From a virus: DNA of 64,000 bases. This document shows, piece after piece, positions 37,996-59,669 of this stretch. The stretch is taken from positions 152,499-216,498 of the IMG/VR virus record IMGVR_UViG_3300010334_000023. One strand, 5' to 3'. Both the position numbers and the translations under genes were made by a program. Below the pieces are notes generated by a model. That model was not told the origin of the DNA, ran no database searches, and was given only the letters and a program-made list of their open reading frames with translations. How positions within the stretch are numbered: position 1 is the first letter of the stretch; each line of letters starts with the position of its first letter.

Positions 37996-40212
37996 TCAGC
38001 TGTACTTCATGGTGATGCGCCACGACCCCTGTGTGCTGGTGCCTATGCCCACGTAGGCATTGATAGTGGTGATCTGCGTGACTGGATAGCTGAGAGCTGC
38101 TGTGTAGTTGCCCACGGTCGAAGCATTTATCTGCGTGTTGGCCATCAGCAGGCTATGGTCGGCCGCACTGCCCACGGTGAACGTGGTGTTGCTGTCGTTG
38201 AAAGCAGTGATTATGGCGACGTCGAGATCGGTTACCGTGACACCCGCTGTCATGGTACCAACTGTCACAGTGTTGCTGCTGGAGTAGTTGCCAACAGCTG
38301 TGAACTGATAGCTCAAGCTCTGAGTGCCACTGGTTGTGTTGCCCACGTTCTGTCCATCGAGATTGAGGCCAACTGGTACCCAGACCGTGGGACCAAGCTG
38401 CGCGGCCAAGTAGGCTTGGTTATGACCACTGCCGTCGTCGTAGACATAGACTATGGTGCCCAGAGTTACCGTGAGGCTGTTACGCACTGCGATGTTGCTG
38501 ACGAAATAACCAACTGCTACACCAGTGGGACCCGTGGGACCCGTGAGCTGGCTGACGCTGCTGATGTTCCACGCCACGATGTCCACGGTATCGCCGGCCA
38601 CACAGGGTGCGTTCAGTATTACCTGAGTGCCATTGGTAGCTATGTATTCATAGGGAGTAAGCTTGACACCGTTGACGAAAACTTCAACATATGGGGCTAC
38701 ATAATCGCAGGTGAACACTGTCTGGCCGCTGCTGGCATTGAAGTTATATTCTTGGAAGCTGCCAACTGACCTAGGACCGGTTGGACCAGTTGGTCCTGAA
38801 CCGGTTGGACCAGTGGCACCCGTGGGATTTACTCCGGCTATCTGCCATGCCACTATGGTTACAGGATCACCGCCTATGGCAGCATTGGCCAGCGTCACTG
38901 TGCTACCGTTGGTAGCTGTGTACAGATCTGGAGCTAACAGCACTCCGTCATAGTAGACATCAACGTAGCCAGGATAATAGCTGGCAGCAAACACTGTCTG
39001 GCCGGTGGTCGCTGTGAGATCAAAACGCGCATAAGCGCCTAGCGCAGCAGGACCAGTTGGACCAGCAGCACCTGTTGGACCAGTTGAACCAGTAGCGCCT
39101 GTGTTGGCAGCAGTGCCTGGAGTACCTGTTGGACCGGTTGGACCCTGCGCACCAGTTGCACCAGTAGCGCCCTGTGATCCTGCGCCTATGACCTGCCAGT
39201 TGGCATTGTTCAGGGTTGGATTTAGGCAGATGTAGGCTACATTAGTAGCCCTGTTGATCCACATGCTGCCTACAGCATAGCCCTGTGACTGATCGTTGGA
39301 TCTGGTAGGCGGAACCACGGCATCATAGTTGTCCAATGGCTGCACGAAGCCAGCTTGTGCTAGCTTGACAGCACGGTTGCCGTTGATCTTGATGTAGACA
39401 GGCATGGCCAGGCTGTCAGGACGCACGCTGGTCAATCCACCCGGGGTGCTAGGGCTCAACCACAGCACATCACCTGGCAGTCCTGGTAATGGACTGAGGT
39501 TGTTAAGCACCTTGCCTCGCGGCTCCCACTGGAACCAATCTACACCGGGTATGCCTATGGTGCGCACGGTGCCTATGACGTTGCTGCTGGCCAGAGAATT
39601 AGCCTGGGCTAGATAATAATTGCCATTGCTAGAGAGATAAATCAGATCATTTATGTTAAATCCGTGCCCTGGCTGCTCCACACCGATGCGGTTCTGCACT
39701 GGATTCTTGGCTATGAACTTGGCATTTACGTCGGATAGCCAACCTGGATAGGGCTGTATGAAGCTGTTGTAGAGGCTAAGAGTGTTTATGGCTGGCACTC
39801 CGTCTTCGTAGATTTTGAAAACGAAGCCAGGTTGACCAGTTATGGCCACGCCATCGCTGCAGCTGAATGCTTCGTAGCGATTGGTGTCTTCTACCACGCA
39901 GGTGATGCTGTCCACTGACGCAGAGATTATCTGCACTATCTGCACGCACTTGCCTGTGGCTGCTTCACCGTAGTACATTCCGGAGGTTATATCTAGGCCG
40001 TTATAAACGTAGATCTGCGGAGTGCTGAAGCTGCTGTGATTGTATTGAGTGACCGACGCTGTCATGGTCCACTGATAGGGCTGCGGCGCCGGGCCGCCTG
40101 CCCACCATTGATCCTCGCCATATACGGGACCTTCGTCAAATGGCCAATAGCTGAGCGGTGTCAGTGAGATATTGTCTATGTACAGCGTGATGACTGGATT
40201 GATAGATACCAC
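37996..40212 (-). CDS. Virion fibre protein with collagen-like segments (738 residues)
   Basis: This begins with GTG, preceded by GGAGCGATAAC. The N-terminal ~350 residues are globular and beta-rich, with a cysteine-containing region (CVVEDTNRYEAFSCSDG). A collagen-like G-X-Y stretch ([16 protein letters not shown] and on) follows. Then come two related beta modules, each starting F..SA..GQTVF and holding YVDVYYDGVLL or YVEVFVNGVKL and an AGDTV.IVAW end, separated by further GPTG segments. The same module occurs in the next fibre gene. The C-terminal domain ends WRITMKYS. A tail or head fibre that meets the host surface is likely. Confidence 0.8.
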   Translation of the reverse strand: MVSINPVITLYIDNISLTPLSYWPFDEGPVYGEDQWWAGGPAPQPYQWTMTASVTQYNHSSFSTPQIYVYNGLDITSGMYYGEAATGKCVQIVQIISASVDSITCVVEDTNRYEAFSCSDGVAITGQPGFVFKIYEDGVPAINTLSLYNSFIQPYPGWLSDVNAKFIAKNPVQNRIGVEQPGHGFNINDLIYLSSNGNYYLAQANSLASSNVIGTVRTIGIPGVDWFQWEPRGKVLNNLSPLPGLPGDVLWLSPSTPGGLTSVRPDSLAMPVYIKINGNRAVKLAQAGFVQPLDNYDAVVPPTRSNDQSQGYAVGSMWINRATNVAYICLNPTLNNANWQVIGAGSQGATGATGAQGPTGPTGTPGTAANTGATGSTGPTGAAGPTGPAALGAYARFDLTATTGQTVFAASYYPGYVDVYYDGVLLAPDLYTATNGSTVTLANAAIGGDPVTIVAWQIAGVNPTGATGPTGSGPTGPTGPRSVGSFQEYNFNASSGQTVFTCDYVAPYVEVFVNGVKLTPYEYIATNGTQVILNAPCVAGDTVDIVAWNISSVSQLTGPTGPTGVAVGYFVSNIAVRNSLTVTLGTIVYVYDDGSGHNQAYLAAQLGPTVWVPVGLNLDGQNVGNTTSGTQSLSYQFTAVGNYSSSNTVTVGTMTAGVTVTDLDVAIITAFNDSNTTFTVGSAADHSLLMANTQINASTVGNYTAALSYPVTQITTINAYVGIGTSTQGSWRITMKYS

Positions 40213-40224
40213 GTTATCGCTCCA

Positions 40225-41553
40225 TCAACCTGTGAATATCATGGTTACCCAGAGATATCCGTCTCCGCTAGCCGGCACGCCGGTGTTACCGGGGCTCAGC
40301 GCGAACAAGCTGGTGGTATTGATATCGAGGCTGAGGCAAGAATAGCTGCCGCCTGTTGCATTGCTGGGCACTGTTTGCCTATAGGCCCCAGCTGGTTGTA
40401 CCAATGGACCACCTTGGCAGGTTACTATGCCTGGATAGGCATTCATGCCATGCACTATGGTTATCTGTGTGTCACCTGCTCTAGTGATCTGGGGTGCTGT
40501 GATGTTTGAGAGATTGTCAACGTAGCCATTTGGCAGCAGTATGCCGCTGTTGAACAGCAGCCTAAAGCTGATGAGGCTGGTAGCTGTGGCGCCCGTAGGT
40601 CCAAGCGGCCCGCTTGGACCAGTCACTCCTGTGGCACCTGTGGGACCTGTGGTAGTGCTGGTTGGACCTGTTGGCCCGGTCACTGTTGATGCAGGACCTG
40701 TGGGGCCTATGGGACCGCCGCTTGGACCAGTGGGACCAGTCATCTGGCTGACCGTGGCTATCTCCCAGGCTATGATGCTGACAGGATCTCCGCCCAGTGC
40801 CTGCTGAGTTAGCACCACGGTGTTACCGTCTGTGGCTATATATTCACTGTTTGGTACCAGCAGCAATCCATTATAGTAAACGTCTACGAAATCTGGTGTG
40901 TAGGTAGCATAGAACACTGTCTGGCCAGATGTAGCATAGCTGTCGTAGCGCTGAAAAGCACCGCTGGCAGCCGGACCAGTGGGACCTGCTGCGCCAGTGG
41001 GACCAGTGCTGATAGGACCAGTTGGACCAGGAGGTCCTGGAGGACCCTGTGCGCCACCTGTGTTGGTAGCCTGTGGTTGATTGCTGCCGCCTGCTATGGC
41101 TCCATAGTTCAGCAGAATCTGGTTGACTGATCCCACGAAATAGGCATCAGTTGGAGGCGGTACCAGATACTTCCTGTCCACCACTGCTCGCAGCCACACA
41201 TAGTTGCCGCTGAAGCTGTAGGCAAAGATGCCCGTGTCCCCCTGAGTGATGTTGGGATATTGGTTGGCAGGCCACTGCAGCAGAGCTGGATCAAATCCGG
41301 TTGGCAGCGCGGGATCCAGCGGGAACTGCACATATGGCGTGCCGTTGCCTATGGGTATGTTAAACCAATCACTGTCGGCATTGGGGTCGGTAGCCAAGCT
41401 GCCTTGTATGTAGATCCGGCCTGTGAAATTGTCCAGATTGATGCTCACGGTATGGTTATTACCAACCATGTTGTTGTATCCGGCACCCTTTTGCTTGATG
41501 CCGATCACGTTGATCTGGTTATTGGTGGTACCTAGAAGTGTGACGCTGATCAT
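40225..41553 (-). CDS. Virion fibre protein with collagen-like segments (442 residues)
   Basis: AGGCGGCAAA precedes the ATG. The N-terminal ~165 residues are globular (MISVTLLGTTNNQINVIG, later GRIYIQGSLATDPNADSDWF). They are followed by G-X-Y repeats ([11 protein letters not shown]), one SGQTVFYATYTPDFVDVYYNGLLL module shared with the neighbouring fibre, a longer GPTG block, and a C-terminal globular domain (ITIVHGMNAYPGIVTCQGG). It is 12 bases from the larger fibre gene, so the two are probably made together. A late-type box lies just upstream. Confidence 0.8.
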   Translation of the reverse strand: MISVTLLGTTNNQINVIGIKQKGAGYNNMVGNNHTVSINLDNFTGRIYIQGSLATDPNADSDWFNIPIGNGTPYVQFPLDPALPTGFDPALLQWPANQYPNITQGDTGIFAYSFSGNYVWLRAVVDRKYLVPPPTDAYFVGSVNQILLNYGAIAGGSNQPQATNTGGAQGPPGPPGPTGPISTGPTGAAGPTGPAASGAFQRYDSYATSGQTVFYATYTPDFVDVYYNGLLLVPNSEYIATDGNTVVLTQQALGGDPVSIIAWEIATVSQMTGPTGPSGGPIGPTGPASTVTGPTGPTSTTTGPTGATGVTGPSGPLGPTGATATSLISFRLLFNSGILLPNGYVDNLSNITAPQITRAGDTQITIVHGMNAYPGIVTCQGGPLVQPAGAYRQTVPSNATGGSYSCLSLDINTTSLFALSPGNTGVPASGDGYLWVTMIFTG

Positions 41554-41822: not shown

Positions 41823-42152
41823 TCATCTGATCTTTGGTTTGCGACCGCGCTTGCGACCAGTGCTGCGAGTAGTGCCGTCTGGATTGATGTTGAATATCTC
41901 GGCATACCTCTGCACGCTCATGCCATCTATGGCAGTAATGTCATCGCTGCTCACTGTCAACTGTCCCTGCCCGTTTGCTTCCTTGAGAGTGAGAGCGAAA
42001 GATCCGCTGTTTTCGACCACGCTGATCAGATGGTAATCATCAGAAGCCTGCTGTGGCCAACCAAATGCGTTCCTGCGACTGATCCTGGCAGTGACCATGC
42101 TGTCCTCACCTAGCTTGCCCTGTGCGATAAGCTCGCTCACGAGGTTGATCAT
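41823..42152 (-). CDS. Hypothetical protein with AT-hook-like tail
   Basis: This encodes 109 residues. The body is beta-rich (DYHLISVVENSGSFALTLKEANGQGQLTVSS) with an IDGMSVQRYAEIFNI helix. The C-terminus is GRKRGRKPKIR, which contains the RGRKP core of AT-hook DNA-binding motifs. It overlaps the clpA stop by four bases and so is made with ClpA. DNA binding is suggested by the tail only. Confidence 0.65.
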   Translation of the reverse strand: MINLVSELIAQGKLGEDSMVTARISRRNAFGWPQQASDDYHLISVVENSGSFALTLKEANGQGQLTVSSDDITAIDGMSVQRYAEIFNINPDGTTRSTGRKRGRKPKIR

Positions 42153-44437
42153 TGCGAGACCTCCTGAACCAACTGCAGGTCCTGCGGCTGTGCCGTGTCT
42201 GGCGCAGGTTCTGGATTGCTGAGATATTCAAACTCTAGCTTGTCTTCCTTGACAGTGATCATCACAGCTCCGCCGTGTCGCAGCTTGCCAAACAGCATCT
42301 CTCTGCTCAGTGGCTTCTTGATGTGATCGGCGATCACTCTGGCCAAGGGACGCGCACCCATGTTGGTGTCAAATCCCTTGTCGATCAGCCACTGCTTGGC
42401 AGAAGCATCGCAGACTATCTTGACGTTCTTGCGAGCACTCAGACCATTGAGCTCGCCGAGGAACTTGTCAACGATGCTGTCCATGTTGTCCTTGTTCAGC
42501 TTGTTGAACTTGATGATGGCATCCAGCCTGTTGCGGAACTCTGGTGTGAAGAAACGGTTGATGGCCTGCGTGTCCTCGTCTCGCACAGTGCTCTTGGTGA
42601 AGCCGATCAGTTCCTTTTCCATGTCAGCTGCACCCAGATTGCTGGTGAAGATCACGATGGCATTGCGTGCGCTGGCTGATTTTCCTTGGCTGCTGGTCAC
42701 TGTGCCATGATCCATCAGCGCAAGGAAGATGTTGTAGACGTCGGGATGTGCTTTTTCGATCTCGTCGAACAGCAGCACGCAGTGAGGATGCGTGTCAAGC
42801 TCATTGATCAGCACGCCGCCGCCGGCACCACCGTCACCGTAACCAACGTAACCCGGAGGTGATCCGATGAACTTGCTGACTGTGTGACGCTCTTGGTACT
42901 CGCTCATGTCAAATCTGGCAAAATGCACGCCTAGGCTCTTGGCCAACTGCTTGGCAACTTCGGTCTTGCCCACACCACTGGGCCCTGAGAACAGGAAGCT
43001 GCCCACGGTCTTGTCGCTCTCGCGCAGTCCGCTCCTGCTCATGTAGATGGCGTTGACCACTCCGTCGATGGCATCGATCTGTCCAAATATCTTGGCTTTG
43101 AGATCAGTCTCTAGCTGTTCTAGCTTGTCAGCTTCCTTGCTCTTTACCGTGGTCACAGGTACCTTGGCTACTCTGCTGACTTCGGCTTCGATCATTTCCT
43201 TGGTCAATAGCTTGGCACGTTCTGATGCTGGTTTGATCCTCTGCCATGCTGCTGCGCTGTCCACGATGTCGATGGCCTTGTCAGGCAAGCATCTGTCGTG
43301 TATGTGCTTGGTAGTGAGTTCCACTGCAGCATCCAAGGCTTCTGGTTCAAACTCGATACCATGGTACTCTTCGTAGTGCTTGGCGATACCTCTGAGTATG
43401 CGCTTGCTGTCCTCAACGCTGGGTTCGAACACGTCCAGCTTTTGGAATCGCCGCACCAGCGCACGGTCCTTTTCAAAGTGCTTGCGATATTCCTCGTTGG
43501 TGGTGCTGCCGATGCAGCAGATCTCGCCGCGGCTCAGCGCAGGCTTTAGCATGTTAGCTGCGTCGATGCTGCCACCGCCTCCGCCATTGCCTGCACCCAT
43601 GATCATGTGTATCTCGTCGATGAACATGATGGTCTTTGGCAGCGCTGAGAACGCTGCGATGATCTGCTTGAGACGCTCTTCAAAATCACCTCTGAACTTG
43701 GTACCTGCTACCAACGTGGCCACATCAAGGTTCCAGATGGTGTGATCGGCTAAGCTGTCTGGTACATCCCCTTCGATGATGCGCCGAGCCAAGCCTTCTA
43801 CTATGATGGTCTTGCCCACACCGGGATCGCCGGTCATGATCACGTTATGCTTGTTGCGGCGTGCCATGATCTGGCAGATCTGTTCAACTTCCTTCTCACG
43901 GCCGATCAGAGGATCTATGCGGCCTGCCTGTGCCTTGGCATTGAGATTGATGCAGTATTCCTCGAGTATCTCAAGAGCTGCTTTGCTGTCCATGGCCGAA
44001 TCTGGGCTGTTATCGGTGCGATTGGCTAGCTCGACTAGCTTTTCCTTGGTTGGACCATGCTTCTCCAAAAACCAACTAGCTGGGCTGTCTGGTATGTGAT
44101 ACAGTGCTAGCAACACGTCCACCGCACCTATGTCACCGCGACCGCTGAACAGGCTCTGTGTCTTGGCCTTCTTGATCACGTTGCTGAGCAGCGCTGTATG
44201 CCGAGGCTGGAAGCTGCCTGCCTTGACCACGACATGGTTGCGCTCGTTGTTCAACCACTCGCTGGTCAGAGTGATCAGCTTTTCCAGATCGCCCCCACCT
44301 TGTACCATGAGATCCTGTATGGGTTCCATCTCCAGCAGTCCTGCCAGCAGATGCTCAAGCGTTACCAGCTCGTGGTTAAGGCTAGCAGCCAGTTGATAAG
44401 CACGCTGCAGTGGTTGTTCAAAAGCCTGCATGCTCAT
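42149..44437 (-). CDS. clpA: ClpA-like AAA+ unfoldase
   Basis: This encodes 762 residues, close to bacterial ClpA. It has an N-terminal Clp repeat domain, Walker A motifs GDPGVGKT (203-210) and GPSGVGKT (485-492), Walker B MFIDEIH and LLFDEIEKAH, and no ClpB middle coil. ClpA unfolds proteins and feeds them to ClpP. The loop before the RFFTPEFRNRLD block reads ELIGF, with IGF at 611-613, matching the IGL/IGF tripeptide by which ClpA/ClpX dock on ClpP. The phage protein could therefore use host ClpP. It is coupled to the peptide deformylase gene. AGGGAG lies nine bases before the ATG. Confidence 0.93.
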   Translation of the reverse strand: MSMQAFEQPLQRAYQLAASLNHELVTLEHLLAGLLEMEPIQDLMVQGGGDLEKLITLTSEWLNNERNHVVVKAGSFQPRHTALLSNVIKKAKTQSLFSGRGDIGAVDVLLALYHIPDSPASWFLEKHGPTKEKLVELANRTDNSPDSAMDSKAALEILEEYCINLNAKAQAGRIDPLIGREKEVEQICQIMARRNKHNVIMTGDPGVGKTIIVEGLARRIIEGDVPDSLADHTIWNLDVATLVAGTKFRGDFEERLKQIIAAFSALPKTIMFIDEIHMIMGAGNGGGGGSIDAANMLKPALSRGEICCIGSTTNEEYRKHFEKDRALVRRFQKLDVFEPSVEDSKRILRGIAKHYEEYHGIEFEPEALDAAVELTTKHIHDRCLPDKAIDIVDSAAAWQRIKPASERAKLLTKEMIEAEVSRVAKVPVTTVKSKEADKLEQLETDLKAKIFGQIDAIDGVVNAIYMSRSGLRESDKTVGSFLFSGPSGVGKTEVAKQLAKSLGVHFARFDMSEYQERHTVSKFIGSPPGYVGYGDGGAGGGVLINELDTHPHCVLLFDEIEKAHPDVYNIFLALMDHGTVTSSQGKSASARNAIVIFTSNLGAADMEKELIGFTKSTVRDEDTQAINRFFTPEFRNRLDAIIKFNKLNKDNMDSIVDKFLGELNGLSARKNVKIVCDASAKQWLIDKGFDTNMGARPLARVIADHIKKPLSREMLFGKLRHGGAVMITVKEDKLEFEYLSNPEPAPDTAQPQDLQLVQEVSQ

Positions 44438-44940
44438 GCTGTGACTCCCTGGCGCTTGACCTTCTTGGCCAGCTTGCGCCGTGCTAGATCCAAGCGCAGC
44501 TTGCTTACCCTGTCGTCGATCATGATGCCCTGTAGATGATCAAACTCATGCAGGAATATCCTGCTCCATCCAAAGCCCATGTCAGTGATCTGCTGGTTGC
44601 CAGTGATATCTCTGAACATGACCTTGATCTGCTTGCTGCGCTTGACCTTGAGAACCAAACCTGGCAGGCTAAGGCAGCCTTCATCATGTTCATCAGTCTC
44701 GTCGCTGGCACTGAGCACCACGGGATTGATGAACACTGCGTCCTGGCCTTCCACGCTGACCACGAACAGGTTGATGCTGTGCCCTACCTGTGGCGCAGCC
44801 AACCCAACTCCTCCGTGCGCCCGCAGCGTGTCAAACATGTCTTGGATCAGTGGACCCAGAGATGGAATCTCACTGGGTTCTATCAAGCGTGCTTGCTGCC
44901 GCAGCAGTGCTGCTGGACTGGTCACTAAGGGTAGTATCAT
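44434..44940 (-). CDS. def: Peptide deformylase
   Basis: This removes the formyl group from the N-terminal methionine of new proteins. All three family motifs are intact: GVGLAAPQ (44-51), EGCLS (87-91) and HEFDH (131-135), giving the Cys and two His metal ligands and the catalytic Glu. The 168-residue size equals bacterial enzymes and is longer than many cyanophage deformylases because it keeps a C-terminal helix (LDLARRKLAKKVKRQ). It overlaps clpA by four bases and follows dnaJ by four, so the three are one unit. Confidence 0.95.
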   Translation of the reverse strand: MILPLVTSPAALLRQQARLIEPSEIPSLGPLIQDMFDTLRAHGGVGLAAPQVGHSINLFVVSVEGQDAVFINPVVLSASDETDEHDEGCLSLPGLVLKVKRSKQIKVMFRDITGNQQITDMGFGWSRIFLHEFDHLQGIMIDDRVSKLRLDLARRKLAKKVKRQGVTA

Positions 44941-44944
44941 TGTT

Positions 44945-45829
44945 TTACTGGCTCCTCTGGCTCTGCACTTGCTTGAGCAGATCCCTTTGTTGAGTGGTTA
45001 GATTCCTGCATATCTCTACGTTGAGCCTGAGGAACAGGTCTCCTCTGTGGCGTGCGTTGTTGTGAGCAGGCATGCCTTGGCCTTGAACACGCAGCATGGT
45101 ACCGTGCTGCGTGCCAGCTGGTACGTTTACGCTGAGCTTTTGGCCATCTATGCCCGTGACTTCTTGGTCGGTGCCCAGCATGGCTGCTATGGCATCCACG
45201 TTCAGCACAGCATGCAGATGCGGACCATCTCTGTTGAACAACGCATGCTCGCTGATTGACACGGTGACATAGAGATCACCTGGGGGCAGATTGCCCATGC
45301 TGCGGTCGCCGTGACCTTGGAACTTGAGCCTGGTGCCATTCTGCACGCCAGCAGGTATTGAGACATTGATGCTGGTCTGCTGCCCGTTGGCATCAAACTG
45401 CACGGGCACGGTCTTGCCAACAAAGGCATCTTCCAGGGTGATGTTGAGAGTGAACTGCCAATCTCTGTTACGAGGCGGCTGCGGTCTGCCAAAGCCCTGC
45501 CCGAACACCTGGCTCATGATGTCATCGAATGGATTGCCACCTCCGCCAAAGCTGAAACTGAAATCCGCACCAGGAAATCCGTGGTTGAAGTTTTGATGGA
45601 AGGGATTGCCTCCCTGTCCAAACCTGCGCTGTTGATCGTACTGCGCACGTTTCTGGGCATCGCCCAGCGTGTCATTGGCCTCGTTGATCTTCTTGAACAG
45701 GGCCTCTGAATCCTTGTTGCCCTGGTTGAGATCAGGGTGATGCTGCTTGGCTAATCGCCTATAAGCAGCTCTGATTTCGTCTGGACTGGCGTTTTCGCCT
45801 ATTTCGAGTATCTTGTAATAATCTTCCAT
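44945..45829 (-). CDS. DnaJ/CbpA-like J-domain co-chaperone
   Basis: This encodes 294 residues from the ATG at 45829 (MEDYYKILEIGENASPDEIR). The J domain holds His31-Pro32-Asp33, which stimulates DnaK. A Gly/Phe-rich linker (FGQGGNPFHQNFNHGFPG) follows, then the two C-terminal substrate-binding domains. The four CXXCXGXG zinc repeats of full DnaJ are absent, so it is the CbpA type. A TTGACA promoter with its -10 box five bases before the ATG suggests a leaderless message. With ClpA and deformylase it forms a protein-maturation unit. Confidence 0.9.
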   Translation of the reverse strand: MEDYYKILEIGENASPDEIRAAYRRLAKQHHPDLNQGNKDSEALFKKINEANDTLGDAQKRAQYDQQRRFGQGGNPFHQNFNHGFPGADFSFSFGGGGNPFDDIMSQVFGQGFGRPQPPRNRDWQFTLNITLEDAFVGKTVPVQFDANGQQTSINVSIPAGVQNGTRLKFQGHGDRSMGNLPPGDLYVTVSISEHALFNRDGPHLHAVLNVDAIAAMLGTDQEVTGIDGQKLSVNVPAGTQHGTMLRVQGQGMPAHNNARHRGDLFLRLNVEICRNLTTQQRDLLKQVQSQRSQ

Positions 45830-45834
45830 GACAG

Positions 45835-45864
45835 AGTGTAACCTATTGAGCACCATGGTGTCAA
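45835..45864 (-). promoter_or_regulatory. Sigma-70-like promoter abutting the dnaJ-like start
   Basis: On the minus strand TTGACA (45859-45864), 18 bases, TACACT (45835-45840), then CTGTC and the ATG at 45829. Confidence 0.5.
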
Positions 45865-45878
45865 TGCCAGCGGCATAC

Positions 45879-45886
45879 CATAAATA
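45879..45886 (+). promoter_or_regulatory. Late promoter box CATAAATA
   Basis: Plus-strand CATAAATA, 36 bases before the TTG at 45922. It lies in the divergent gap next to the minus-strand dnaJ promoter. Confidence 0.55.
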
Positions 45887-45921
45887 ATCAAATATCACCA
45901 ACTAGCAAGGGGTGCAGTGTC

Positions 45922-46670: not shown

Positions 46671-47381
46671 ATGCACATACTCATACCCATGAGCGGGCGA
46701 GGTTCTAGGTTCGCCCAGCAGGGTTACGCAAAACCCAAACCTCTGATAGAATTCTTCGGCAAGCCAATGGTCCAGCATGTGCTGGAGAACCTTGGACTGC
46801 ACAATACATTTACACTATGCGTGCTGCGCGAGCACTATGATGCAGATCCTGTGCTGTTTGAACAGCTAGGTCGCATGACTGATCTCAATTTAGTGTTTGT
46901 GGACCAGGTCACACAGGGTGCTGCTGAGACCTGCTTGCTGGCCAAGCAACATATAAAACCCAATGATACTCTGTTCATTGCCAACTGCGATCAGATCATG
47001 GCCTGGGACCAAGATCACTTTGAAGAATGGTTAGCAGCTGAGCGACTGGATGGTGCCATGCTGACCTTCTTCAAGGACAGTCCAGCCTACAGCTATGTGG
47101 AAGTCGACCAAGGCGGCATAGCCATACGCACGGCTGAAAAGCAGGTCATAAGCCCGCATGCTACCACTGGCATCTACGTGTGGACCCAAGGCAAGGATTT
47201 CGTGTGGGCAGCAGAACAGATGATAGCAGACAACGTGCGTGTCAATAATGAATTCTATGTTTGCCCTGTGTATAATTGGAACATCGCACGCGGCGACCGC
47301 ATAGGCATATATCCACCCCAGGCTCACTGGCCCATAGGCACACCAGAAGACTTGGACATCTACATAGAGGCGCACCAATGA
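46671..47381 (+). CDS. Sugar-phosphate nucleotidyltransferase-like protein
   Basis: This encodes 236 residues. It begins MHILIPMSGRGSRFAQQGYAKPKPLIEFFGKPM, the nucleotide-binding signature of NTP-sugar transferases (GxGxR then KPL). FIANCDQIMAW provides the metal-binding Asp. These enzymes join a sugar 1-phosphate to NMP from an NTP. AAGGG lies upstream of the ATG. It opens the seven-gene RuBisCO-like operon and overlaps the cupin gene by four bases. It is probably the activation step for the sugar or polyol made there; the substrate is unknown. Confidence 0.8.
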   Translation: MHILIPMSGRGSRFAQQGYAKPKPLIEFFGKPMVQHVLENLGLHNTFTLCVLREHYDADPVLFEQLGRMTDLNLVFVDQVTQGAAETCLLAKQHIKPNDTLFIANCDQIMAWDQDHFEEWLAAERLDGAMLTFFKDSPAYSYVEVDQGGIAIRTAEKQVISPHATTGIYVWTQGKDFVWAAEQMIADNVRVNNEFYVCPVYNWNIARGDRIGIYPPQAHWPIGTPEDLDIYIEAHQ

Positions 47382-47710
47382 AAGTATTTGATCCCACGCT
47401 GTTCACAGGTGGTTGGTTCGTTGGAGACTTCCAACCCAGCATCTGGAACACCAAGGACTTTGAAGTAGGTTACAAGTATCATCAGGCCGGCGAACCATGG
47501 CCAGCTCACTATCATGAGCACATGGACGAGATCACCGTTTTGGTAGATGGCGTGATGAGGATACAGGACCAGATCCTGGTTGGCCCGACCATATTCCTGC
47601 TGAAAAAGGGCGAGATAGCAGATCCAGAATTCCTAGCAGATTGCCAAGTGGTGGTGATCAAGACTCCCAGCGTGCCTGGCGACAAGATAGAGGTGAAAAA
47701 AGAATCATGA
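47378..47710 (+). CDS. Small cupin-fold protein
   Basis: This encodes 110 residues. YHQAGEPWPAHYHEHMDEITVLVDG carries the cupin motif 1 pattern (H.H...E...V..G), with His and Glu ligands for a metal. A second strand block (GPTIFLLKKGEIADPEFL) follows. Cupins serve as isomerases, epimerases or dioxygenases in sugar pathways. It overlaps the genes on either side (ATGA at both ends), so it is made in step with the nucleotidyltransferase and the RuBisCO-like protein. Confidence 0.75.
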   Translation: MKVFDPTLFTGGWFVGDFQPSIWNTKDFEVGYKYHQAGEPWPAHYHEHMDEITVLVDGVMRIQDQILVGPTIFLLKKGEIADPEFLADCQVVVIKTPSVPGDKIEVKKES

Positions 47711-48849
47711 GCATAGACATCGTCAGAGACCAAAAGGAACTGGGTACCTATTTCTACGTTACCTACGACGTAGAAAGCACCAGCACGCTGTTTGACGCAG
47801 CATGGGCCATAGCAGTGGGCCAGAGCATTGGCAATCCCAACACACGGTCAGTCTGGGAGACACCAGAGATGATCGAAGCACACTGTGCCAAGATCCTGCG
47901 CAGCAACAACTTTGACAAGAAGAAGGGTTTGGTCACCATTGGTTACCCAGCTGCCAACATCAACTGGGACAACGATGGCATCGCTCAGCTGCTGTGCATC
48001 ATCCAGGGCGGCCAGACTGACATTGACATCATCAAGAAGTGTCGCGTGGTTGATCTTGAGATACATCCCCAGACCATAGACAGCCACTTCAACAAGCCAC
48101 GCTATGGCATCAGTGGCATGAGGGCCTACACTGGCTGCTTTGGCAAACCGTTCTTTGGAGGCATCATCAAGCCCAAGACCGGCGTAACACCTCATCAGCT
48201 GCTAGACATGGTCAAGGAACTGGTTGATGGCGGCGTTAACTTCATCAAGGAAGACGAGATCCTCAGCAATCCAGACATCTGCAGGCTGGAAGATCGCGTG
48301 AGCTTGATCAGTGATTACATCAGCGACAAGAGCGTGGTATATACCTTCTGCATCAACAGCGATCCTCTGCATGTGCTGGATCGCGCACGTTTCGTGGCCA
48401 GCAATGGCGGCACAGGGGTGCACGTGAACGTGTGGAGCGGTCTTGGCGTGTACAAGAGCATACGCGATCTGGATCTGGATCTGTTCATACACTATCAGAA
48501 GAGCGGTGACAAGGTCATCACGCATAAGAAGAATCCTTTTGGCATAGAGTGGACTGTGCTGTGCCAGCTGGCAGCTATCAGCGGTGTTGACACCATACAC
48601 GCAGGCATGTGGGGTGGCTACCTATCGGATCCCGAAGACGAGATCACTGCGTACATGAAAGTTCTCAGAAGCGGCAACGTGGTTCCTGCGCTAAGCTGCG
48701 GTATGACAGCAGAGCTGATCCCACCAATCGTGGAAAAGTTTGGTGTGGACTGGATGGCCAACGTGGGCGGCGCCATACACGGTCATCCAGATGGCACGCT
48801 GGCAGGTGCACAGAAGATACGCCGAGCCATAGACAGCTTGAAGGTGTGA
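47707..48849 (+). CDS. RuBisCO-like protein (form IV type)
   Basis: This encodes 380 residues homologous to the RuBisCO large subunit. GGIIKPKTG (151-159) keeps both Lys of loop 1, and NFIKEDE keeps the carbamylated Lys (181) and metal ligands Asp183 and Glu184. GVHVNVW aligns with the HIHRAMH strand but has Asn and Val for His294 and Arg295. DTIHAGMWGGY keeps His327 but has Tyr305 in place of loop-6 Lys334. ALSCG keeps Ser379, and GGAIHGHP follows. Without Lys334 it should not fix CO2; such proteins are enolases or isomerases of phosphorylated ketoses. Metal-enolate chemistry looks intact. It is coupled to the cupin gene by ATGA. Confidence 0.92.
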   Translation: MSIDIVRDQKELGTYFYVTYDVESTSTLFDAAWAIAVGQSIGNPNTRSVWETPEMIEAHCAKILRSNNFDKKKGLVTIGYPAANINWDNDGIAQLLCIIQGGQTDIDIIKKCRVVDLEIHPQTIDSHFNKPRYGISGMRAYTGCFGKPFFGGIIKPKTGVTPHQLLDMVKELVDGGVNFIKEDEILSNPDICRLEDRVSLISDYISDKSVVYTFCINSDPLHVLDRARFVASNGGTGVHVNVWSGLGVYKSIRDLDLDLFIHYQKSGDKVITHKKNPFGIEWTVLCQLAAISGVDTIHAGMWGGYLSDPEDEITAYMKVLRSGNVVPALSCGMTAELIPPIVEKFGVDWMANVGGAIHGHPDGTLAGAQKIRRAIDSLKV

Positions 48850-48850
48850 C

Positions 48851-49324
48851 ATGAAGTTCATAGCACACCGAGGATTGATGGACGGTCCTGATGAGCGCAT
48901 GCAGAACCGCCCTGATCAGATCGTCAAGGCACTGGACCATGGATTCGAAGCAGAGATAGACCTGTGGCATATAGATGGCAAGTGGGTGCTGGGACATGAT
49001 GGTCCTGAGCATGACATCGAATTTGATTACCTCAGGCAGAAGGGCCTGTGGATTCACTGCAAGAACCTCGATGCGCTGTTTGCTCTCAGAGCACAGAAAC
49101 ATCACTACAACTTCTTTTGGCACGAAAGTGATCTAGTGACGCTGACCAGCACCAACATGGTCTGGACTTACTTTGGCAAGCCAGAGACCGTGAGCCCCAT
49201 GAGCATCTGCGTGATGCCGGAAGCTACCTATGAATGGACAGACATAGAGCAGATGGTGCGCAGCTGGAACTGGTATGGCTTCTGCAGCGACTATGTGAAC
49301 CGGCTGCGGGCATGGCAACACTAG
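48851..49324 (+). CDS. GDPD-like phosphodiesterase
   Basis: This encodes 157 residues, one base after the RuBisCO-like gene. MKFIAHRGL (His6, Arg7), EAEIDLW (Glu35, Asp37) and GHD (His49) are the metal and catalytic residues of glycerophosphodiester phosphodiesterases. The protein is shorter than the usual ~240 residues, as in homologues from capsule clusters. Its role could be to trim or transfer a glycerophosphate-type group, or to open a phosphodiester in the product of this operon. Confidence 0.8.
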   Translation: MKFIAHRGLMDGPDERMQNRPDQIVKALDHGFEAEIDLWHIDGKWVLGHDGPEHDIEFDYLRQKGLWIHCKNLDALFALRAQKHHYNFFWHESDLVTLTSTNMVWTYFGKPETVSPMSICVMPEATYEWTDIEQMVRSWNWYGFCSDYVNRLRAWQH

Positions 49325-49971
49325 CACTATGCTTTGCGGGATTACCTCGCATAACTGACGTCAGCACTGCTAGCTGGCGTCGCCTCATTGATCAACACGA
49401 CACTGATGTATTCGTGCATGCGTGGAGCAACGATGCTGAACTGTCTCGCAACTGGATCAGCAGTGCGTATGCTCCCACAGAGATGATAATAGAATCTCAG
49501 CGAGAGTTTGATACCAGCATCTACAAGGATCGCATCTGGGCCTATAGGTCGCAGCCACGAAACGTGCTCAGCATGTGGTACAGCATAGCTCAGAGCCTTC
49601 AGCTGGCAGACCGGCACGCACGGAAACAGCGCAAGACCTATGACTTTGTTGCCCGTGCACGATTTGATTGGCACTGTGATCAGTTTGTGCTGGAACAGTA
49701 CGATGGCCTCACAGTGCCAGATGATCCCGGTCTGAGCGGTCACAATTTCCAGCATCGCGGAACATGGCACGTGGCACACAACGATCAGTTTGGATATGGC
49801 AGCATGACTGTGATGCGAGACTACGGAGAGACATTTGCTCGCATACCTTGGCTGTATTCTGTAGATGGTGTCGACTTCTGCAGCGAATTATTCCTCACCA
49901 CTAACATGATGACCAAGCAAATTCCGGTTAAATTACAGAAGGGCATGCGCTATCGCATGGTAAGGGACTAA
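49312..49971 (+). CDS. Putative glycosyltransferase-like protein
   Basis: This encodes 219 residues starting MATLALCFAGLPRITDVSTASW, 13 bases inside the end of the previous gene. DTDVFVHAWSND, then YDFVARARFDWHCDQF and a later DQFGYGSMTVMRDY block, resemble capsule-locus transferases in which an R.D motif serves as the DXD site. There is no membrane span. It is followed after one base by a family 2 glycosyltransferase. The donor and acceptor are unknown. Confidence 0.65.
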   Translation: MATLALCFAGLPRITDVSTASWRRLIDQHDTDVFVHAWSNDAELSRNWISSAYAPTEMIIESQREFDTSIYKDRIWAYRSQPRNVLSMWYSIAQSLQLADRHARKQRKTYDFVARARFDWHCDQFVLEQYDGLTVPDDPGLSGHNFQHRGTWHVAHNDQFGYGSMTVMRDYGETFARIPWLYSVDGVDFCSELFLTTNMMTKQIPVKLQKGMRYRMVRD

Positions 49972-49972
49972 C

Positions 49973-51043
49973 ATGAAGATAGGTGTATATACGATCGCGT
50001 TAAACGAGCTACAGCACTGCGAACGCTGGGCTCAGAGCGTGGCAGATGCTGACTATCGTGTTGTGCTAGACACGGGTAGCACAGATGGCACGGTTGAGAA
50101 GCTGCGCGAGCTGGGTGTCACTGTGTTTGAACAACGTTTTGATCCATGGCGCTTTGATCATGCTCGCAACGCTGCGCTGGCCTGCTTGCCCACAGACACT
50201 GACATCTGCATCAGCCAGGACATGGACGAGTTCCTTGCTGAAGGTTGGCGACCCAAGATGGAAGCAGCTTGGCGCATGAACGAGACCACACGCTTGGCCT
50301 ATACCTATGTGTTTGATTATCGTGTTGGTGGACCAAATGATGGTTACCGCATGGACAAGATACACGCTAGGATAGGCTATCAATGGAAGCGCCCAGTGCA
50401 TGAGACAGTGTTCAGCACAGTGGGTCTTGAGAATGTTGCCGAAGATCTCAGCATAGTGCTGAACCAGATACAGGATCGCAGCAAGGACACTCGAGGGCGT
50501 TACTTGCCACTGCTGAAGATGGCAGCCGAGGAAGACAGCGACGACAGCCAGATCAGCTTTTGGTATGGCCGCGAGCTGATGTATGCGAACCAACATACCG
50601 AGTCAGTGACAGAGCTTGAGAGATATCTCAGCCTTGAGACCAGTAGGTGGCCCATAGAGCGTTCAGAAGCCATGATATACATCAGCAGGATGAGCGACAG
50701 CCGCAAGCTGGAATATCTGCAGCGAGCACTGATATGTTCGCCTGAACGCAGGCAGGTGTGGTTAGAGATGGCTCGCTACTATTACAACAACCAGGACTGG
50801 CACGGTCTGCTGTGGGCAGCTGGCAGCGGCATGGAAAAGAGCCGCAGGGATCACAGCTATCTGGACAGTGCAGATGCCTGGGGCAATCAGCTGCTGGACT
50901 TTGGCAGCATAGCTGCTGCTAACCTTGGATGGTACAGCAAGGCAGCTGATTGGTGCCGACAGGCACTGGACATGAGCCCCAGTGACGATAGATTGAAAAC
51001 CAACCTGCAGTGGATGCAGGATAAGATCAAGGGACAAGCATGA
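49973..51043 (+). CDS. Family 2 glycosyltransferase with C-terminal helical repeats
   Basis: This encodes 356 residues. The GT-A core opens MKIGVYTIALNELQHCERW, with DTGSTDGT at 33-40 for nucleotide-sugar binding and QDMDEFL (DXD at 83-85) for metal. From about residue 170 on it is helical with TPR-like spacing (WYGRELMYANQHTESVTELERYL, later WYSKAADWCRQALDMSPSDDRLKTNL). Such fusions often modify proteins or large glycans. It overlaps the next gene at ATGATG, and the two are close paralogues. Confidence 0.85.
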   Translation: MKIGVYTIALNELQHCERWAQSVADADYRVVLDTGSTDGTVEKLRELGVTVFEQRFDPWRFDHARNAALACLPTDTDICISQDMDEFLAEGWRPKMEAAWRMNETTRLAYTYVFDYRVGGPNDGYRMDKIHARIGYQWKRPVHETVFSTVGLENVAEDLSIVLNQIQDRSKDTRGRYLPLLKMAAEEDSDDSQISFWYGRELMYANQHTESVTELERYLSLETSRWPIERSEAMIYISRMSDSRKLEYLQRALICSPERRQVWLEMARYYYNNQDWHGLLWAAGSGMEKSRRDHSYLDSADAWGNQLLDFGSIAAANLGWYSKAADWCRQALDMSPSDDRLKTNLQWMQDKIKGQA

Positions 51044-52104
51044 TGCGCATAGCGATTTACGGACCAACCAAGAACCAAGCTCACCATGTGCAGGCATGGT
51101 ATGATAGCTGCAAGGATGCTGATGTTATCTGCATCGCAGACACTGGCAGCACAGACGGAACCAAGGAAGCCATGTTGGCACTGGGAGTGCAGGTCACGGA
51201 TGTCCGCATCATACCTTGGCGCTTTGACGATGCGTTCAACACTGCGATGTATCTAGTACCAGATGACATAGATGTGTGCATACGCCTGGACACCGATGAG
51301 AGACTGACACCAGGTTGGCGCGACAAGCTGGAAGCAGCTTGGAAGCCAGAAACCACGAGGCTGCGCTATCCCTACATCTGGAACTGGAACGCTGACGGCA
51401 CGCCAGGTCGCCAGTGGTACGGCGATCGCATACACAGCCGCAAAGGCTACCGCTGGATGGGAGCCACGCACGAAGGACTGGTCAGCAGATTACCAGAAAT
51501 ACATACTTTCACAGATGATTTCCAGATACATCACTTCCCAGATCCCAAGAGCAAGAGCGGTGATCTCAGCCTGCTGGAAGAAAGCGTGAGAGAGTGGCCG
51601 CATGATAGCCGCATCAAGGCCTACCTGGGCCGCGAGTATGCTTATCAAAAGATCTGGGACAAGTGCGCAGCTACCTACAAGGAATTCCTCGGTATGAGCT
51701 TTGACACGGTTGAGCGCTGCCAGGCTCTGACCACTCTGGCACAGGCTGAACCCGAGAACAAGCTGTTTTGGCTCAAGCAGGCTGCCTATGAAGTACCCAC
51801 TCATCGCGAACCTTTAGTAGCATTGGCACAGCACTACTATGAAGCAGCAGACTGGAAGAACTGCTACGACTATTCTCATCGCGCTCTCAAGATCACCAAG
51901 CATCCCATGGACTACACCTGCACACCTGAGGCATGGGGATGGCAACCGCATGATCTGCTGAGCATCGCAGCATGGAACCTAAGGCTCTATGACGAATGCT
52001 TGGAACAGGCCAAGACAGCTCTGGAAAAATCTCCAGATGACACGCGACTGAAAAACAATCTCAAGCTGATAGAGGATTTCATAGCCAAGAATCTACGTGG
52101 TTGA
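51040..52104 (+). CDS. Family 2 glycosyltransferase with C-terminal helical repeats, paralogue
   Basis: This encodes 354 residues and begins with ATG at 51040, with GGGAC before it. It has the same plan as its upstream neighbour: CIADTGSTDGT, CIRLDTDERL with DXD at 84-86, and a shared PWRFDDAFNTAM block. A TPR-like half follows (LGREYAYQKIWDKCAATYKEFL, ECLEQAKTALEKSPDDTRLKNNL). The pair arose by duplication and may add successive sugars. It is the last cistron of the RuBisCO-like operon. Confidence 0.85.
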   Translation: MMRIAIYGPTKNQAHHVQAWYDSCKDADVICIADTGSTDGTKEAMLALGVQVTDVRIIPWRFDDAFNTAMYLVPDDIDVCIRLDTDERLTPGWRDKLEAAWKPETTRLRYPYIWNWNADGTPGRQWYGDRIHSRKGYRWMGATHEGLVSRLPEIHTFTDDFQIHHFPDPKSKSGDLSLLEESVREWPHDSRIKAYLGREYAYQKIWDKCAATYKEFLGMSFDTVERCQALTTLAQAEPENKLFWLKQAAYEVPTHREPLVALAQHYYEAADWKNCYDYSHRALKITKHPMDYTCTPEAWGWQPHDLLSIAAWNLRLYDECLEQAKTALEKSPDDTRLKNNLKLIEDFIAKNLRG

Positions 52105-55493: not shown

Positions 55494-58400
55494 ATGGCAA
55501 TAGACCCTAATACCATCGATACCCAGTTTCCTGTCGCTAATCAAGACAATGATAGCCAGGGATTTAGGAACAATTTCTCGGCTATCCAAGAGAACTTCAT
55601 ACAGGCCAACGCAGCAATAAGCAGCCTGCAGGCCACCACGATAGGTTTAGCCGGACCGGTATACACGCCAATAGCCAGCAATCTAACATCTGGATCAGTC
55701 ACGCTGATCACGGAATTCCAGACCAGCTCAGGCAATTCTACCCTGACCTTCCCTGGTACCAGTGCTGTGGTGTTGCCTGTGGGCAACAGCAGCCAACGTC
55801 CAAACCCAGTGATAGGTCAGATACGCTATAACACTGACACCAATCAGATCGAATATTACAACAGCACCAACTGGTATCCAGTGGGTCCAACAGGTCCCAC
55901 AGGTGCTGACAGTGTCGTAACTGGTCCAACTGGTCCGGCCAATGGTCCTACCGGACCTACTGGTCCGCTGGGCCTGCAGGGTGTGCCTGGACAGCAAGGG
56001 TTCCCAGGCATACCAGGACCAACTGGTCCAACTTCCGTGATCACTGGACCAACTGGTTACACAGGTCCCACATCTAACATATCTGGACCAACTGGCCCAA
56101 CTGGCATCACCGGACCAACAGGTCCCACTGGTGCAACAGGCCCTACTGGCTACACTGGTCCCACAGGTCCCACAGGTGAGACTGGTCCAACTGGACCAAC
56201 TGGTATCACTGGACCCACGGGCATAGGCATACCAGCTCCGCCCGTGCGCAGCGTGCAGTTCAATGCTGGTAGCAATGTGTTTGGTGGCAGCAGCCTCTTT
56301 ACCTGGGGCACCGACAATGTGCTCAACGTCAACAGCATACTGAGCCAGAACACCCAGATCGTTAATGATGTGATACGCAATAGGTTGGCCTCGGCTAATC
56401 TCGTGCTACAGACACCTGTTGACGGCGGCGTCTACGTGAGCAACGATTTCTATGTGCAGGGCATATCACACAGGACAGCACCACACGTCACTGGCGTGAT
56501 GTACGTGACCGTGGACGGTGACGATGCCAACACTGGCTTGGCAGAAGATCGCGCCAAGCGTACCATAGCCAGCGCTTGCTCAGCAGCAGCACAGCTCATA
56601 GCCAATCCCAGCACGCCTTGGATATACTGCACTATATATGTGCGGGCGGGTGTGTATACCGAGCCAAATCCCATATTGGTTCACAGCGGCATCACGGTGT
56701 TTGGCGATAACCTACGTTCTGTTACCGTGACTCCGCTCAATCCAACATTGGACATATTCTGGCTCAACCCCAAGACATATCTCTATGGCATGACATTCCG
56801 TGGCCATCAGTATCCTGCTGCAGCTGTGCAGTTTCCAGAGAATGGAACCACTGTTATACATGAACTGCATGACTGGGCGTCTCCATACGTGCAGAACTGC
56901 TCAAGCATCACCCTGGGCAAGTATCAAGGCAACGTGCAGATAAGCGAAGCTGGCACTGGTATGATCGTGGACGGTGTTCGTGGTCGCAAGCTCAGTGCGC
57001 CAGATTTTGGCAACGTGATAGTACCGACCATGACCACATGGACCAGCGGCAACACCGCAGTGTTCTATCAAGCCTACGCACCAACCTGGAGTGGTAACGT
57101 GGCAGTGGGTTGGCTAGCTCAGAGCGGCATCGAAGGCAGCCCTGCGGTGGTGACCAGCGTTGGTACAACTACCATTGACGGCAACCCAGCCTACACTTAC
57201 TCGCTAGACGAGTTTGACTACAATACCGTAGACATATATACCTTTGACAACGTGCTGACCAGCACTAGTGCTATCATACTCAACAACACCAGCCCGGGAT
57301 TTGGTGACACGGTGGTTGGGGGATGGTATATGCAGAGTCCTGCCTATCCAGGCTTTGTCAACGCATACACGCTGTTGCGAGCCAACATACCATTCATACA
57401 GGCACAGGTAGTAGCCTACATGCAGGCTGAATTTGGCTATCCTGCCACCAGCACTAGTGCCAGAGATATCGGATACATAACCGATGCAGTTTGCCGCGAT
57501 CTCCTTGCCAGCAACTATGACCTAGCGCTGCAGGCAGGAGAATATTTCTGGACTGAGACAGCAAATGGTCCGGTCAGCGTGCTACCTCCCAGCAGCATAG
57601 CTATCTGCCTAGCTGGCATACAGTTTGCTAGCCAAATAGCACAGACCGCGATTACCAATACCAGCTTCGCTCCTGTATATGATCCCGGAACTCCGCAGGT
57701 TTTCTACGTCTATCTAGGCGACAGCGGTAGAATAGCTGTGACCACCGTGGCTACCAACTACAACATAGTGCTTGAAATCATTCAGAACGGCCCATATAAC
57801 AATCCGCTTGCCAACGGCCAGAGGCTCATGGAGAGCAACAGGCTATTCGCACAGAACGAAGTGGTAGCATACGTAAACACCCTGTATCCGGACACGTTAT
57901 ATAACGCTACTCTGCAGGCTCAGTGCTATCGTGATGTTGGTTATCTCTGGGATGCTATTACCTATGATACCTATCATCTAGGCAATGCTCAGAGCGTGAC
58001 AGATGCGCTGTTCTACTGGGATGGCGCCACATCGCGCATACCAGGCGAGATACCACAGACTGTGAATGCTTTTATCTATGCCAATCAATTGGCCATTAAC
58101 GTGCTCAACAACACACAGACTGCTCCGTTATATCAGAGCAACATAGCTCAGGTCATAGACAACACGCTGGTTGGTGGCAACGTGGTGGTACAGTATGTGA
58201 ATCAACTGTTTGCCTACGTTGAAGACATCGTGGCCAATGGGGCAGGAGCTGCACCCGTGATGTATAACACCACGGGACCTGGCACGCCAATAAGCAGCGT
58301 GACCTATCAGCCAGGTTACGATAGCATGAACGGTAACAATGCTTGGCTCATAGAGTTCGCTGGCCCCATACCCGGCACAAGCTGGCCATATCCGCTGAGC

Positions 58401-59669
58401 AATCCAAACCTCACATATCCGATCTACAACCTGGTGTTCACCAGCCAGGGTGGACCATTTACCTTCGTGCCATTCAAGAGCACGCTGCCCTATCGCGGAC
58501 AGGGCCTGAACAGCATGGTGCTTGATGCATTCACTCAATACAACGAGATAGGCTACACTCCCGTGCCAGTGCCTCTGGGAACCGTTGACAACAACGCTCT
58601 GAACCATGGTGGTAACGGCATAGTGATCAAGAACGGTGGCTACGCTCAGCTGGTTTCGATCTTTGAGATCTGCTGCAACATCGGAGTCATCTGCCAAAGC
58701 GGTGGCACCTGTTCCATAACCAACTCAAACACTGACTTTGGCAACTATGGCCTCTGGGCCGATGGTATGAGCGATGAACAATACGTCTGCAACATAGATA
58801 ACACAGCAGTACCTGCGGGATTCACTAATGGTACCGCAGGGCTGTGGTACGTGAACAACCTACCTCTGTTCAATGCCGCAGCACCTAACCAGGGCTATGT
58901 GCGACCCTATGTGGGGCAGGTGTGCTATGTTGGTCAGCTCTACTATTACATACAAGCAGCTAACGTCACCGTGGGTGGCAGTGGGTACATAGCACCGCCC
59001 AGCATATCAATAAACCTAGACAGCACACAATATCAGGCTTTCATATTGGCAGGTGGTACCATTGCGCAGGCGCAGCCAATAATGGCCCTAGACGGTGGCA
59101 GCTATCTGGGTTCTCCTACCTATTACGTTGAACAGGTCAGCATCATAGTAAGCGGTAGCCAATACACGGCTTTGGACCTAGCTAAACCTGACTTCTTTGT
59201 GTTCAGCGCGCCAGAGAACCCAGGTGGTACAACCGCAGCAGCAACGCCAATAGGCTACCCGATCTACTACACGATTACCTACGGCACAAGCACAGGTAGC
59301 GGACAAGGCACTGTAGTGCTCGATGAGAACTTACCATATGTTCCGGTCAACGGTGCTCCCATGCACATGTTCCAAGTCAGCAGGATCATCACCAGCAGCC
59401 ACTGCATGGAATACGTGGGATCGGGTACTGATATCGCCAAGTGCATACCGGCAAGAACCAGCAGCCTAGCAGGCAATGCACCTGATCAAACACATGAAGT
59501 GGTGATGACCAACGGCGGCAGGGTAGCATATACCACTACTGACCACCTTGGTAACTTCAGGATCGGACCCGAATTGGTGATAAATCAAAACACAGGTACG
59601 CTGTCTGGACGCACGTTCCAGAAGAGCCTGTTCGCAATTATGACGCCATATATACTGGCGCTACAATGA
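55494..59669 (+). CDS. Large virion fibre protein with collagen-like and beta-helix domains
   Basis: This encodes 1391 residues. The N-terminus ([26 protein letters not shown]) is a conserved virion module in T4-like aquatic phages, to my memory. Residues about 120-245 are collagen-like ([14 protein letters not shown] and so on). From about 330 the sequence resembles a pectate-lyase-type beta-helix ([52 protein letters not shown]). The C-terminal third has further beta-rich and globular segments. It most likely forms a long fibre or spike that binds, and perhaps cuts, a surface polysaccharide. It is followed after 15 bases by a small virion-type gene. Confidence 0.8.

Follow-up and report, generated by a model that had tools for sequence, protein, structure and literature searches.

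A stretch of viral DNA of 64,000 nucleotides (the window), which is the final 64 kb of the 216,498-bp virus record IMGVR_UViG_3300010334_000023, carries an operon of seven genes built around a RuBisCO-like protein (RLP). We found that this RLP belongs to a distinct clade of the RuBisCO superfamily, that its residue pattern is the one expected of an enolising, non-carboxylating enzyme, and that its constant partner is a sugar nucleotidyltransferase (NTase). The explanation that we favor, with somewhat more confidence than doubt, is that the RLP acts as a pentulose-phosphate isomerase or epimerase feeding a nucleotide-activated glycan building block, and that the operon is the phage copy of a mobile nucleotide-sugar module. 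An initial annotation of the window, made from the sequence alone, had listed an NTase, a cupin, the RLP, a GDPD-like phosphodiesterase and three glycosyltransferases within 46671-52104. All seven genes were found there on the + strand, overlapping or closely spaced, and profile matches agreed with the families named, the glycosyltransferase-like protein at 49312-49971 weakly so, with a sub-threshold hit to DUF7796 as its sole Pfam match.

The RLP passed the curated Pfam cut-offs for both RuBisCO domains, RuBisCO_large (PF00016; 8.6e-37, 127.4 bits, cut-off 30.1) and RuBisCO_large_N (PF02788; 9e-6, 26.3 bits, cut-off 20.7), and is therefore a member of the RuBisCO superfamily. It stayed by a wide margin under every NCBIfam cut-off for a RuBisCO type: the best model was form III (172.6 bits, cut-off 497), and OiaX (1e-37, 130 bits, cut-off 700) and MtnW (TIGR03332; 95.3 bits, cut-off 513.6) also matched below their limits. 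The AlphaFold2 (AF2) model, calculated from an alignment of 34 phage relatives, had a pLDDT of 93.4, and the closest solved folds were form III RuBisCOs (TM-score 0.88, 27-28% identity). In a maximum-likelihood tree, phage and cellular RLPs formed a single clade with 100/100 support, apart from forms I, II, II/III and III, MtnW, and the OiaX and kinase-linked RLPs. A second tree, to which eight KPQG-motif RLPs and one NonPhoto-like RLP were added, separated the clade again (100/99, with the bootstrap not fully settled). The eight KPQG/KDDH sequences are, judging by their motif, presumably of the Rhodospirillum rubrum type (DeepYkr); the clade names of all nine added RLPs, and the form names of genome sequences that lacked names, were assigned by motif and score, and the trees were built without IV-GOS, IV-AMC, IV-Photo and IV-Aful references. 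Thus, the window RLP falls inside no form I, II or III clade and groups neither with MtnW nor with the OiaX or KPQG/KDDH RLPs, and it fits the broad definition of form IV as RuBisCO homologues with replaced catalytic residues.

The active site was analyzed in an alignment of 55 clade members (34 phage, 21 cellular; form I numbering), which reach as far as 36-45% identity from the window RLP. K175, K177, K201, D203, E204, H327, S379 and G381 were invariant in all 55. The carbamylatable Lys and the metal-binding Asp and Glu (KxDE), correctly recognized in the initial annotation, are K181, D183 and E184 of the window RLP, and the Tyr reported at the position of loop-6 Lys334 is Y305. All 55 proteins share K334Y, and the same holds for E60G, T65N and H294Q, which the annotation had not listed; neither had it listed H298, which is Asp in 53 of 55 members including the window RLP, or N123, which is replaced throughout by Gly or, depending on the alignment, by a neighboring Gln. 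The reported lack of Arg295 held as far as the Arg itself is concerned, but a conservative Lys takes its place (54 of 55 members; K265 in the window RLP), so that phosphate binding by the RLP may persist. K177 was lost in all other RLP groups sampled, so the residue pattern is not theirs. In the RuBisCO mechanism, the kept residues are enough to bind the metal and to enolise the substrate, and those that were lost take part in adding CO2 and in the steps that follow. The RLP is therefore expected from its residues to be an enolising, non-carboxylating enzyme, as the initial annotation had proposed.

An accessory RuBisCO that fixes CO2 and thereby raises carbon fixation in the host, the assumption made in reports on viral 'rbcL' genes, would agree with the form III fold and with the intact metal and carbamate residues. 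We regard it as hardly credible, because E60, N123, H294, H298 and K334 have given way to other residues, none of the carboxylating forms tested includes the clade, the setting is one of glycan synthesis, and no gene of the IF-2B/MtnA/R15P-isomerase family was found in 35 RLP virus records, many of them fragmentary (phosphoribulokinase was not searched). Carboxylase identity was therefore rejected for the RLP on residues and tree position together.

To describe the gene linkage, we collected 48 phage loci after removal of near-copies, 44 of which have at least 3.5 kb on both sides, and counted partners within 3.5 kb of the RLP on the same strand. The results showed that the NTase was present in 42 of the 44 loci, the cupin in 37, the GDPD in 37 and all three in 30, most frequently in the order NTase-cupin-RLP-GDPD; since the cluster recurs in many diverged contigs, it is not a product of chance. 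In cells, RLP and NTase were neighbors in most of the 22 records and in nearly all informative loci, including those of Verrucomicrobia and Azospirillum, where a simple ORF caller had missed the NTase and coordinates place it next to the RLP. GDPD-like genes also occur near the RLP in SAR11, Verrucomicrobia and Nanoarchaeia. The constant partner of the RLP is thus the NTase; the cupin/NTase pair sought beside RLP genes elsewhere was recovered in the phage loci, but the cupin is near-universal in the phage branch only. In six SAR11 loci (L087, L089, L090, L091, L092 and L094), two NTase homologues flank the RLP; the upstream one in L087 is without the GxGxR nucleotide motif and, on this evidence, may be inactive or regulatory.

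The neighboring genes are mostly of glycan synthesis (GT2, GT10, GT25, NeuB, NAD epimerases, UDP-GlcNAc 2-epimerase and FkbM), and the nucleotide-sugar and glycosyltransferase genes that recur around the RLP agree with the glycan setting given in the initial annotation. No transporter or glycoside hydrolase family was among the 25 commonest Pfam families of the neighbors. This argues against a cluster whose GDPD, cupin and RLP degrade or scavenge host glycan or lipid head groups while the NTase serves a separate function. GDPDs do usually hydrolyse glycerophosphodiesters and most characterised RLPs are catabolic, but RLP and NTase are the most conserved pair, NTases are anabolic and the module ends with glycosyltransferases, and we consider scavenging distinctly unlikely. 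The tight linkage to the NTase and the many changed active-site residues could also be read as an RLP unconnected with enediolate chemistry, or as a structural or regulatory partner of the NTase. Since the metal-binding and base residues are invariant in 55 proteins despite their divergence, a non-catalytic RLP is not expected, and such a role is very improbable.

Variants of the module without RLP bear on its reaction. Scanning with the cupin family returned 540 loci, and the RLP was found in 64 of the best 80. Synechococcus phage Bellamy and about 28 relatives in IMG/VR have no RLP; their NTase carries a fused RpiB domain (PF02502, 3.9e-32), usually with the cupin and the GDPD after it, and a HAD phosphatase and a PfkB-like kinase lie upstream. 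Bellamy gp206 (L075, 8823-9980), annotated as 'phosphatase', is such an NTase-RpiB fusion, with the cupin directly after it. RpiB enzymes interconvert ribose 5-phosphate and ribulose 5-phosphate. In a third variant, from which both RLP and RpiB are missing, the NTase is fused to a HAD domain and accompanied by cupin and GDPD (L248, L202 and 13 more loci). RpiB was found in none of 51 RLP records, and RLP in none of 32 records of the RpiB or HAD variants, many records in both sets being fragments. RpiB therefore takes the place of the RLP in the same gene set, and by analogy this exchange favors the view that the RLP isomerises or epimerises a pentulose phosphate.

In Synechococcus phage S-SKS1 (L079, 8001-9428), a member of this NTase family carries a complete RibB (DHBP synthase) domain as a fusion. 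Eleven IMG/VR loci match this NTase-RibB protein, and the intact ones continue with kinase-like, small HAD and transaldolase-family proteins, so the set looks like a second, separate nucleotide-sugar module. RibB was considered as an alternative to the RLP and dropped, since the two modules stand side by side in six loci, which indicates that the RibB pathway is separate. The same observation bears on the possibility that the RLP breaks a C-C bond like OiaX, the 3-oxo-isoapionate-4-phosphate decarboxylase, so that a shortened ketose phosphate is then activated by the NTase. In its favor, S-SKS1 has a homologous NTase joined to RibB, a C-C-cleaving enzyme of ribulose 5-phosphate, the OiaX model does match the RLP, and a sugar-acid function is proven or annotated for OiaX and the kinase-linked RLPs related to it. 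Those RLPs form a separate clade that keeps K334 and R295 and has K177 and H298 changed, the phage module showed no recognisable sugar-acid kinase or dehydrogenase, and RibB and RLP modules occur together; C-C cleavage is thus an unlikely, though not negligible, explanation.

The partner proteins were analyzed by profile and structure comparison. The NTase exceeded the PF00483 cut-off (41.7 bits against 21.2), its GxGxRF signature was invariant in 25 members, and the top PDB match of the family profile was 4evw (1e-32), which we take to be an uncharacterised structural-genomics entry. The window cupin had no Pfam match; among 25 relatives, Cupin_7 was found in 18 and Cupin_2 in 8. The GDPD-like protein likewise had no Pfam match, but the catalytic set H6, R7, E35, D37 and H49 was invariant in the alignment, and the family profile matched PDB entry 7e0v (2.5e-4). 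Its AF2 model had a pLDDT of 95.2, and the top Foldseek matches were all GDPDs but weak (E at least 2.7e-3); the protein has just 157 aa and reaches TM-scores of 0.5-0.6 to GDPDs. Both GT2-type proteins fall into phrog_13126, labelled 'beta-1,4-glycosyltransferase'. In three Legionella genomes, the sole LicD gene of the genome adjoins the RLP-NTase pair in divergent orientation. LicD-domain enzymes commonly take CDP conjugates and transfer the linked phosphate (PMC4873967), which by analogy points to a CDP-linked product in Legionella. LicD as a general RLP partner was ruled out, as it was seen in Legionella only; phage loci have glycosyltransferases and no LicD, so the final transfer there differs or falls to other families.

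From the family, clade, residue pattern, linkage and RpiB replacement, we infer the following reaction, substrate, nucleotide, step order and final acceptor. The core of the module would be RLP plus NTase, with the mini-GDPD as a usual member and the cupin added in phages. The RLP would take up a pentulose phosphate or bisphosphate, and Mg2+ on carbamylated K181 (RuBisCO K201), D183 and E184 would stabilise the enediolate once a proton is abstracted. With E60, N123 and K334, the residues for CO2 addition, lost, this enediolate would be reprotonated and not carboxylated, giving an isomer or epimer. The NTase would join the phosphate of this product to a nucleotide, most likely from CTP, and the unit would pass to a surface or virion glycan through transferases, which would be the glycosyltransferases in the window and LicD in Legionella. 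The cupin probably adjusts the sugar further, and the probable task of the GDPD is to cut a phosphodiester intermediate or to recycle the donor. That RLP and cupin reshape a sugar phosphate and the NTase activates the product, as first proposed, is plausible. More broadly, we tentatively suggest, with doubt outweighing confidence, that one branch of the RuBisCO superfamily has come to serve anabolic glycan chemistry together with a cytidylyltransferase dedicated to it, making a nucleotide-linked pentulose or pentulose-derived phosphate that decorates virions, host surfaces modified by the phage or the envelopes of bacteria (SAR11, Legionella). If true, a biosynthetic part in glycans would be a first for a RuBisCO relative, and one spread between cells and large phages.

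Several points weigh against this scheme. The favored reaction is a prediction from sequence for every clade member. The RpiB group is made up largely of near-identical cyanophages, so that about two cases of replacement, the Bellamy-type group and L253, count as independent. Given the NTase-HAD variant without RLP or RpiB, the RLP may contribute a step of its own instead of standing in for RpiB, and the kinase and phosphatase genes of the RpiB variant are missing from most RLP loci, so the substrates may differ. The NTase profile cannot tell CTP from UTP, dTTP or GTP, and LicD is limited to Legionella among the RLP loci. Finally, the viral records are mostly fragments, which makes absences weak.

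RLP relatives were found in 72 IMG/VR contigs or loci (44-82% identity) of large environmental phages. No tblastn match was obtained in 50,697 GenBank phage records, so the RLP was not found in isolated phages, and no RuBisCO-like fold was present among the BFVD predicted viral protein structures. Scanning bacteria and archaea with each species represented by one genome gave 22 cellular records with RLP. The bacterial carriers are SAR11 single-cell genomes, three Legionella isolates, Azospirillum oleiclasticum, Patescibacteria, Verrucomicrobia, Elusimicrobia, Sphingobacteriales, Crocinitomicaceae and one alphaproteobacterium; the archaeal carriers are Nanoarchaeia, Pacearchaeota and Woesearchaeota. 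Five of the records (L081, L082, L084, L085 and L097), which branch with phages or come from short contigs, may represent phage DNA that was binned with cells, and the copies of Legionella, Azospirillum, Nanoarchaeia, Elusimicrobia and a 167-kb SAR11 contig look cellular. The module is thus no phage speciality, contrary to the initial annotation: the RLP-NTase pair also occurs in Legionella isolates, large SAR11 contigs, Azospirillum, Nanoarchaeia, Verrucomicrobia and Elusimicrobia. Broader draws found the RLP in 1 of 93 Legionellaceae genomes and 2 of 197 SAR11-order genomes; being this rare and patchy, it is not a common host pathway. Plasmid matches were set aside as just about 30% identical and of the OiaX type or other RLPs. 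In the tree, cell-only branches sit outside the mixed phage branch, which weakly suggests, under a midpoint root, transfer from cells to phages. One small Woesearchaeota genome (L101, G022) has a form III RuBisCO together with an RLP of the clade.

The genes of the operon are listed in Table 1. Neighboring genes share 4-base ATGA overlaps (NTase/cupin, 47378-47381; cupin/RLP, 47707-47710), and a 1-base gap separates the RLP from the GDPD gene, so co-translation of these four genes is likely. Tail-fibre-type genes, some with collagen-like matches, flank the operon on both sides (37996-41553, - strand; 55494-59669, + strand); glycosylation of virion fibres is therefore one candidate use, and the flanking tail-fibre proteins are possible targets. 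Adjoining the operon is a tight row of genes named from sequence as ClpA-like ATPase, peptide deformylase and DnaJ-like (42149-45901, - strand), and neighbors of the same size were seen in loci L003-L006. A QueE-like radical SAM gene (22710-23621, - strand; phrog_2076) suggests a queuosine-type 7-deazaguanine pathway, possibly for DNA modification.

Table 1. Genes of the RLP operon in the window.
Product	Position	Strand	Evidence
Sugar nucleotidyltransferase (NTase), GT-A fold, phrog_3980 family	46671..47381	+	PF00483 1.4e-10, phrog_3980 1e-59
Small metal-type cupin, HxHx4E motif	47378..47710	+	phrog_24762; Cupin_7/Cupin_2 in relatives
RuBisCO-like protein (RLP), 380 aa, distinct clade, expected to be non-carboxylating	47707..48849	+	Pfam, trees, active-site alignment, AF2 model
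Mini-GDPD-like phosphodiesterase	48851..49324	+	Invariant catalytic residues, PDB profile match, AF2 model
Glycosyltransferase-like protein, DUF7796-like, phrog_13607	49312..49971	+	Weak: Pfam match under curated cut-off
GT2-type glycosyltransferase with TPR-like C-terminal region	49973..51043	+	phrog_13126
GT2-type glycosyltransferase, paralogue of the 49973..51043 gene	51040..52104	+	phrog_13126

The known functions of RuBisCO relatives are CO2 fixation, the salvage of nucleotides and of methionine, and the breakdown of sugar acids. A clade whose unusual active site is fixed and whose members go with a sugar NTase in phages, bacteria and archaea alike would extend this range by a biosynthetic branch and would make the function of such an RLP testable with purified enzymes; RuBisCO relatives probably also serve surface-sugar synthesis. 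In the literature searched, which takes in few subscription journals and preprints, we found no RuBisCO-like protein tied to a nucleotidyltransferase or glycan pathway, in line with the earlier remark that no such pathway had been described. Compared with form III RuBisCO (Pyrococcus horikoshii, 2cwx/2d69), the window RLP shares the fold (TM-score 0.88, about 27% identity), the carbamate Lys, the metal Asp/Glu, K175/K177, H327 and S379, but its clade is separate and has E60, N123, H294, R295, H298 and K334 replaced, and its partner is a sugar NTase, whereas that of form III is nucleotide salvage. Form IV-GOS RLPs are named after ocean metagenome sequences; they are possibly the same clade, as the carriers include SAR11 and marine phages. 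OiaX and the four-carbon-acid-kinase-linked RLPs act on branched or straight sugar-acid phosphates in a catabolic context, and the window clade is separate from them (100/100).

The nearest functional analogue is that of R. rubrum, in which the RLP is the 5-methylthioribulose-1-P isomerase and a cupin is the next enzyme (PMC4958253). Common to both would be a non-carboxylating RLP that isomerises a ketose phosphate, together with a cupin partner, which in R. rubrum is a sulfurylase. With this precedent, a methylthioadenosine-salvage or isoprenoid-shunt pair might be proposed for the window; we consider it very unlikely. The R. rubrum RLP belongs to a different clade, as judged by proxy sequences: the KPQG/DeepYkr-like RLPs carry K177Q and E204H and have also lost H327, whereas the window clade keeps all three. 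The constant partner here is a sugar NTase, joined by the GDPD, and no methylthioadenosine-salvage genes accompany them; the wrong clade, together with the absence of MtnA-type genes from the 35 RLP virus records, many of them fragments, led us to reject this analogy as a guide to function. The Bellamy gp206-gp207 cluster and its relatives share the NTase, cupin and GDPD families in mostly the same order, but there the RpiB domain fused to the NTase replaces the RLP, and a PfkB-like kinase and HAD gene lie upstream. 'rbcL' genes on viral contigs have been reported as carbon-fixation genes; one of them, from landfill, clusters with 'RbcL-like' proteins (PMC12607003), and a second was assayed as a carboxylase in lysate (PMC12615777). 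It is no more than a suspicion that these genes overlap the window clade. Since genes of this clade match RuBisCO models and are without the CO2-capturing residues, viral 'rbcL' genes should be checked at E60, N123 and K334 before carbon fixation is inferred, and those of the window clade should not be read as carbon fixation.

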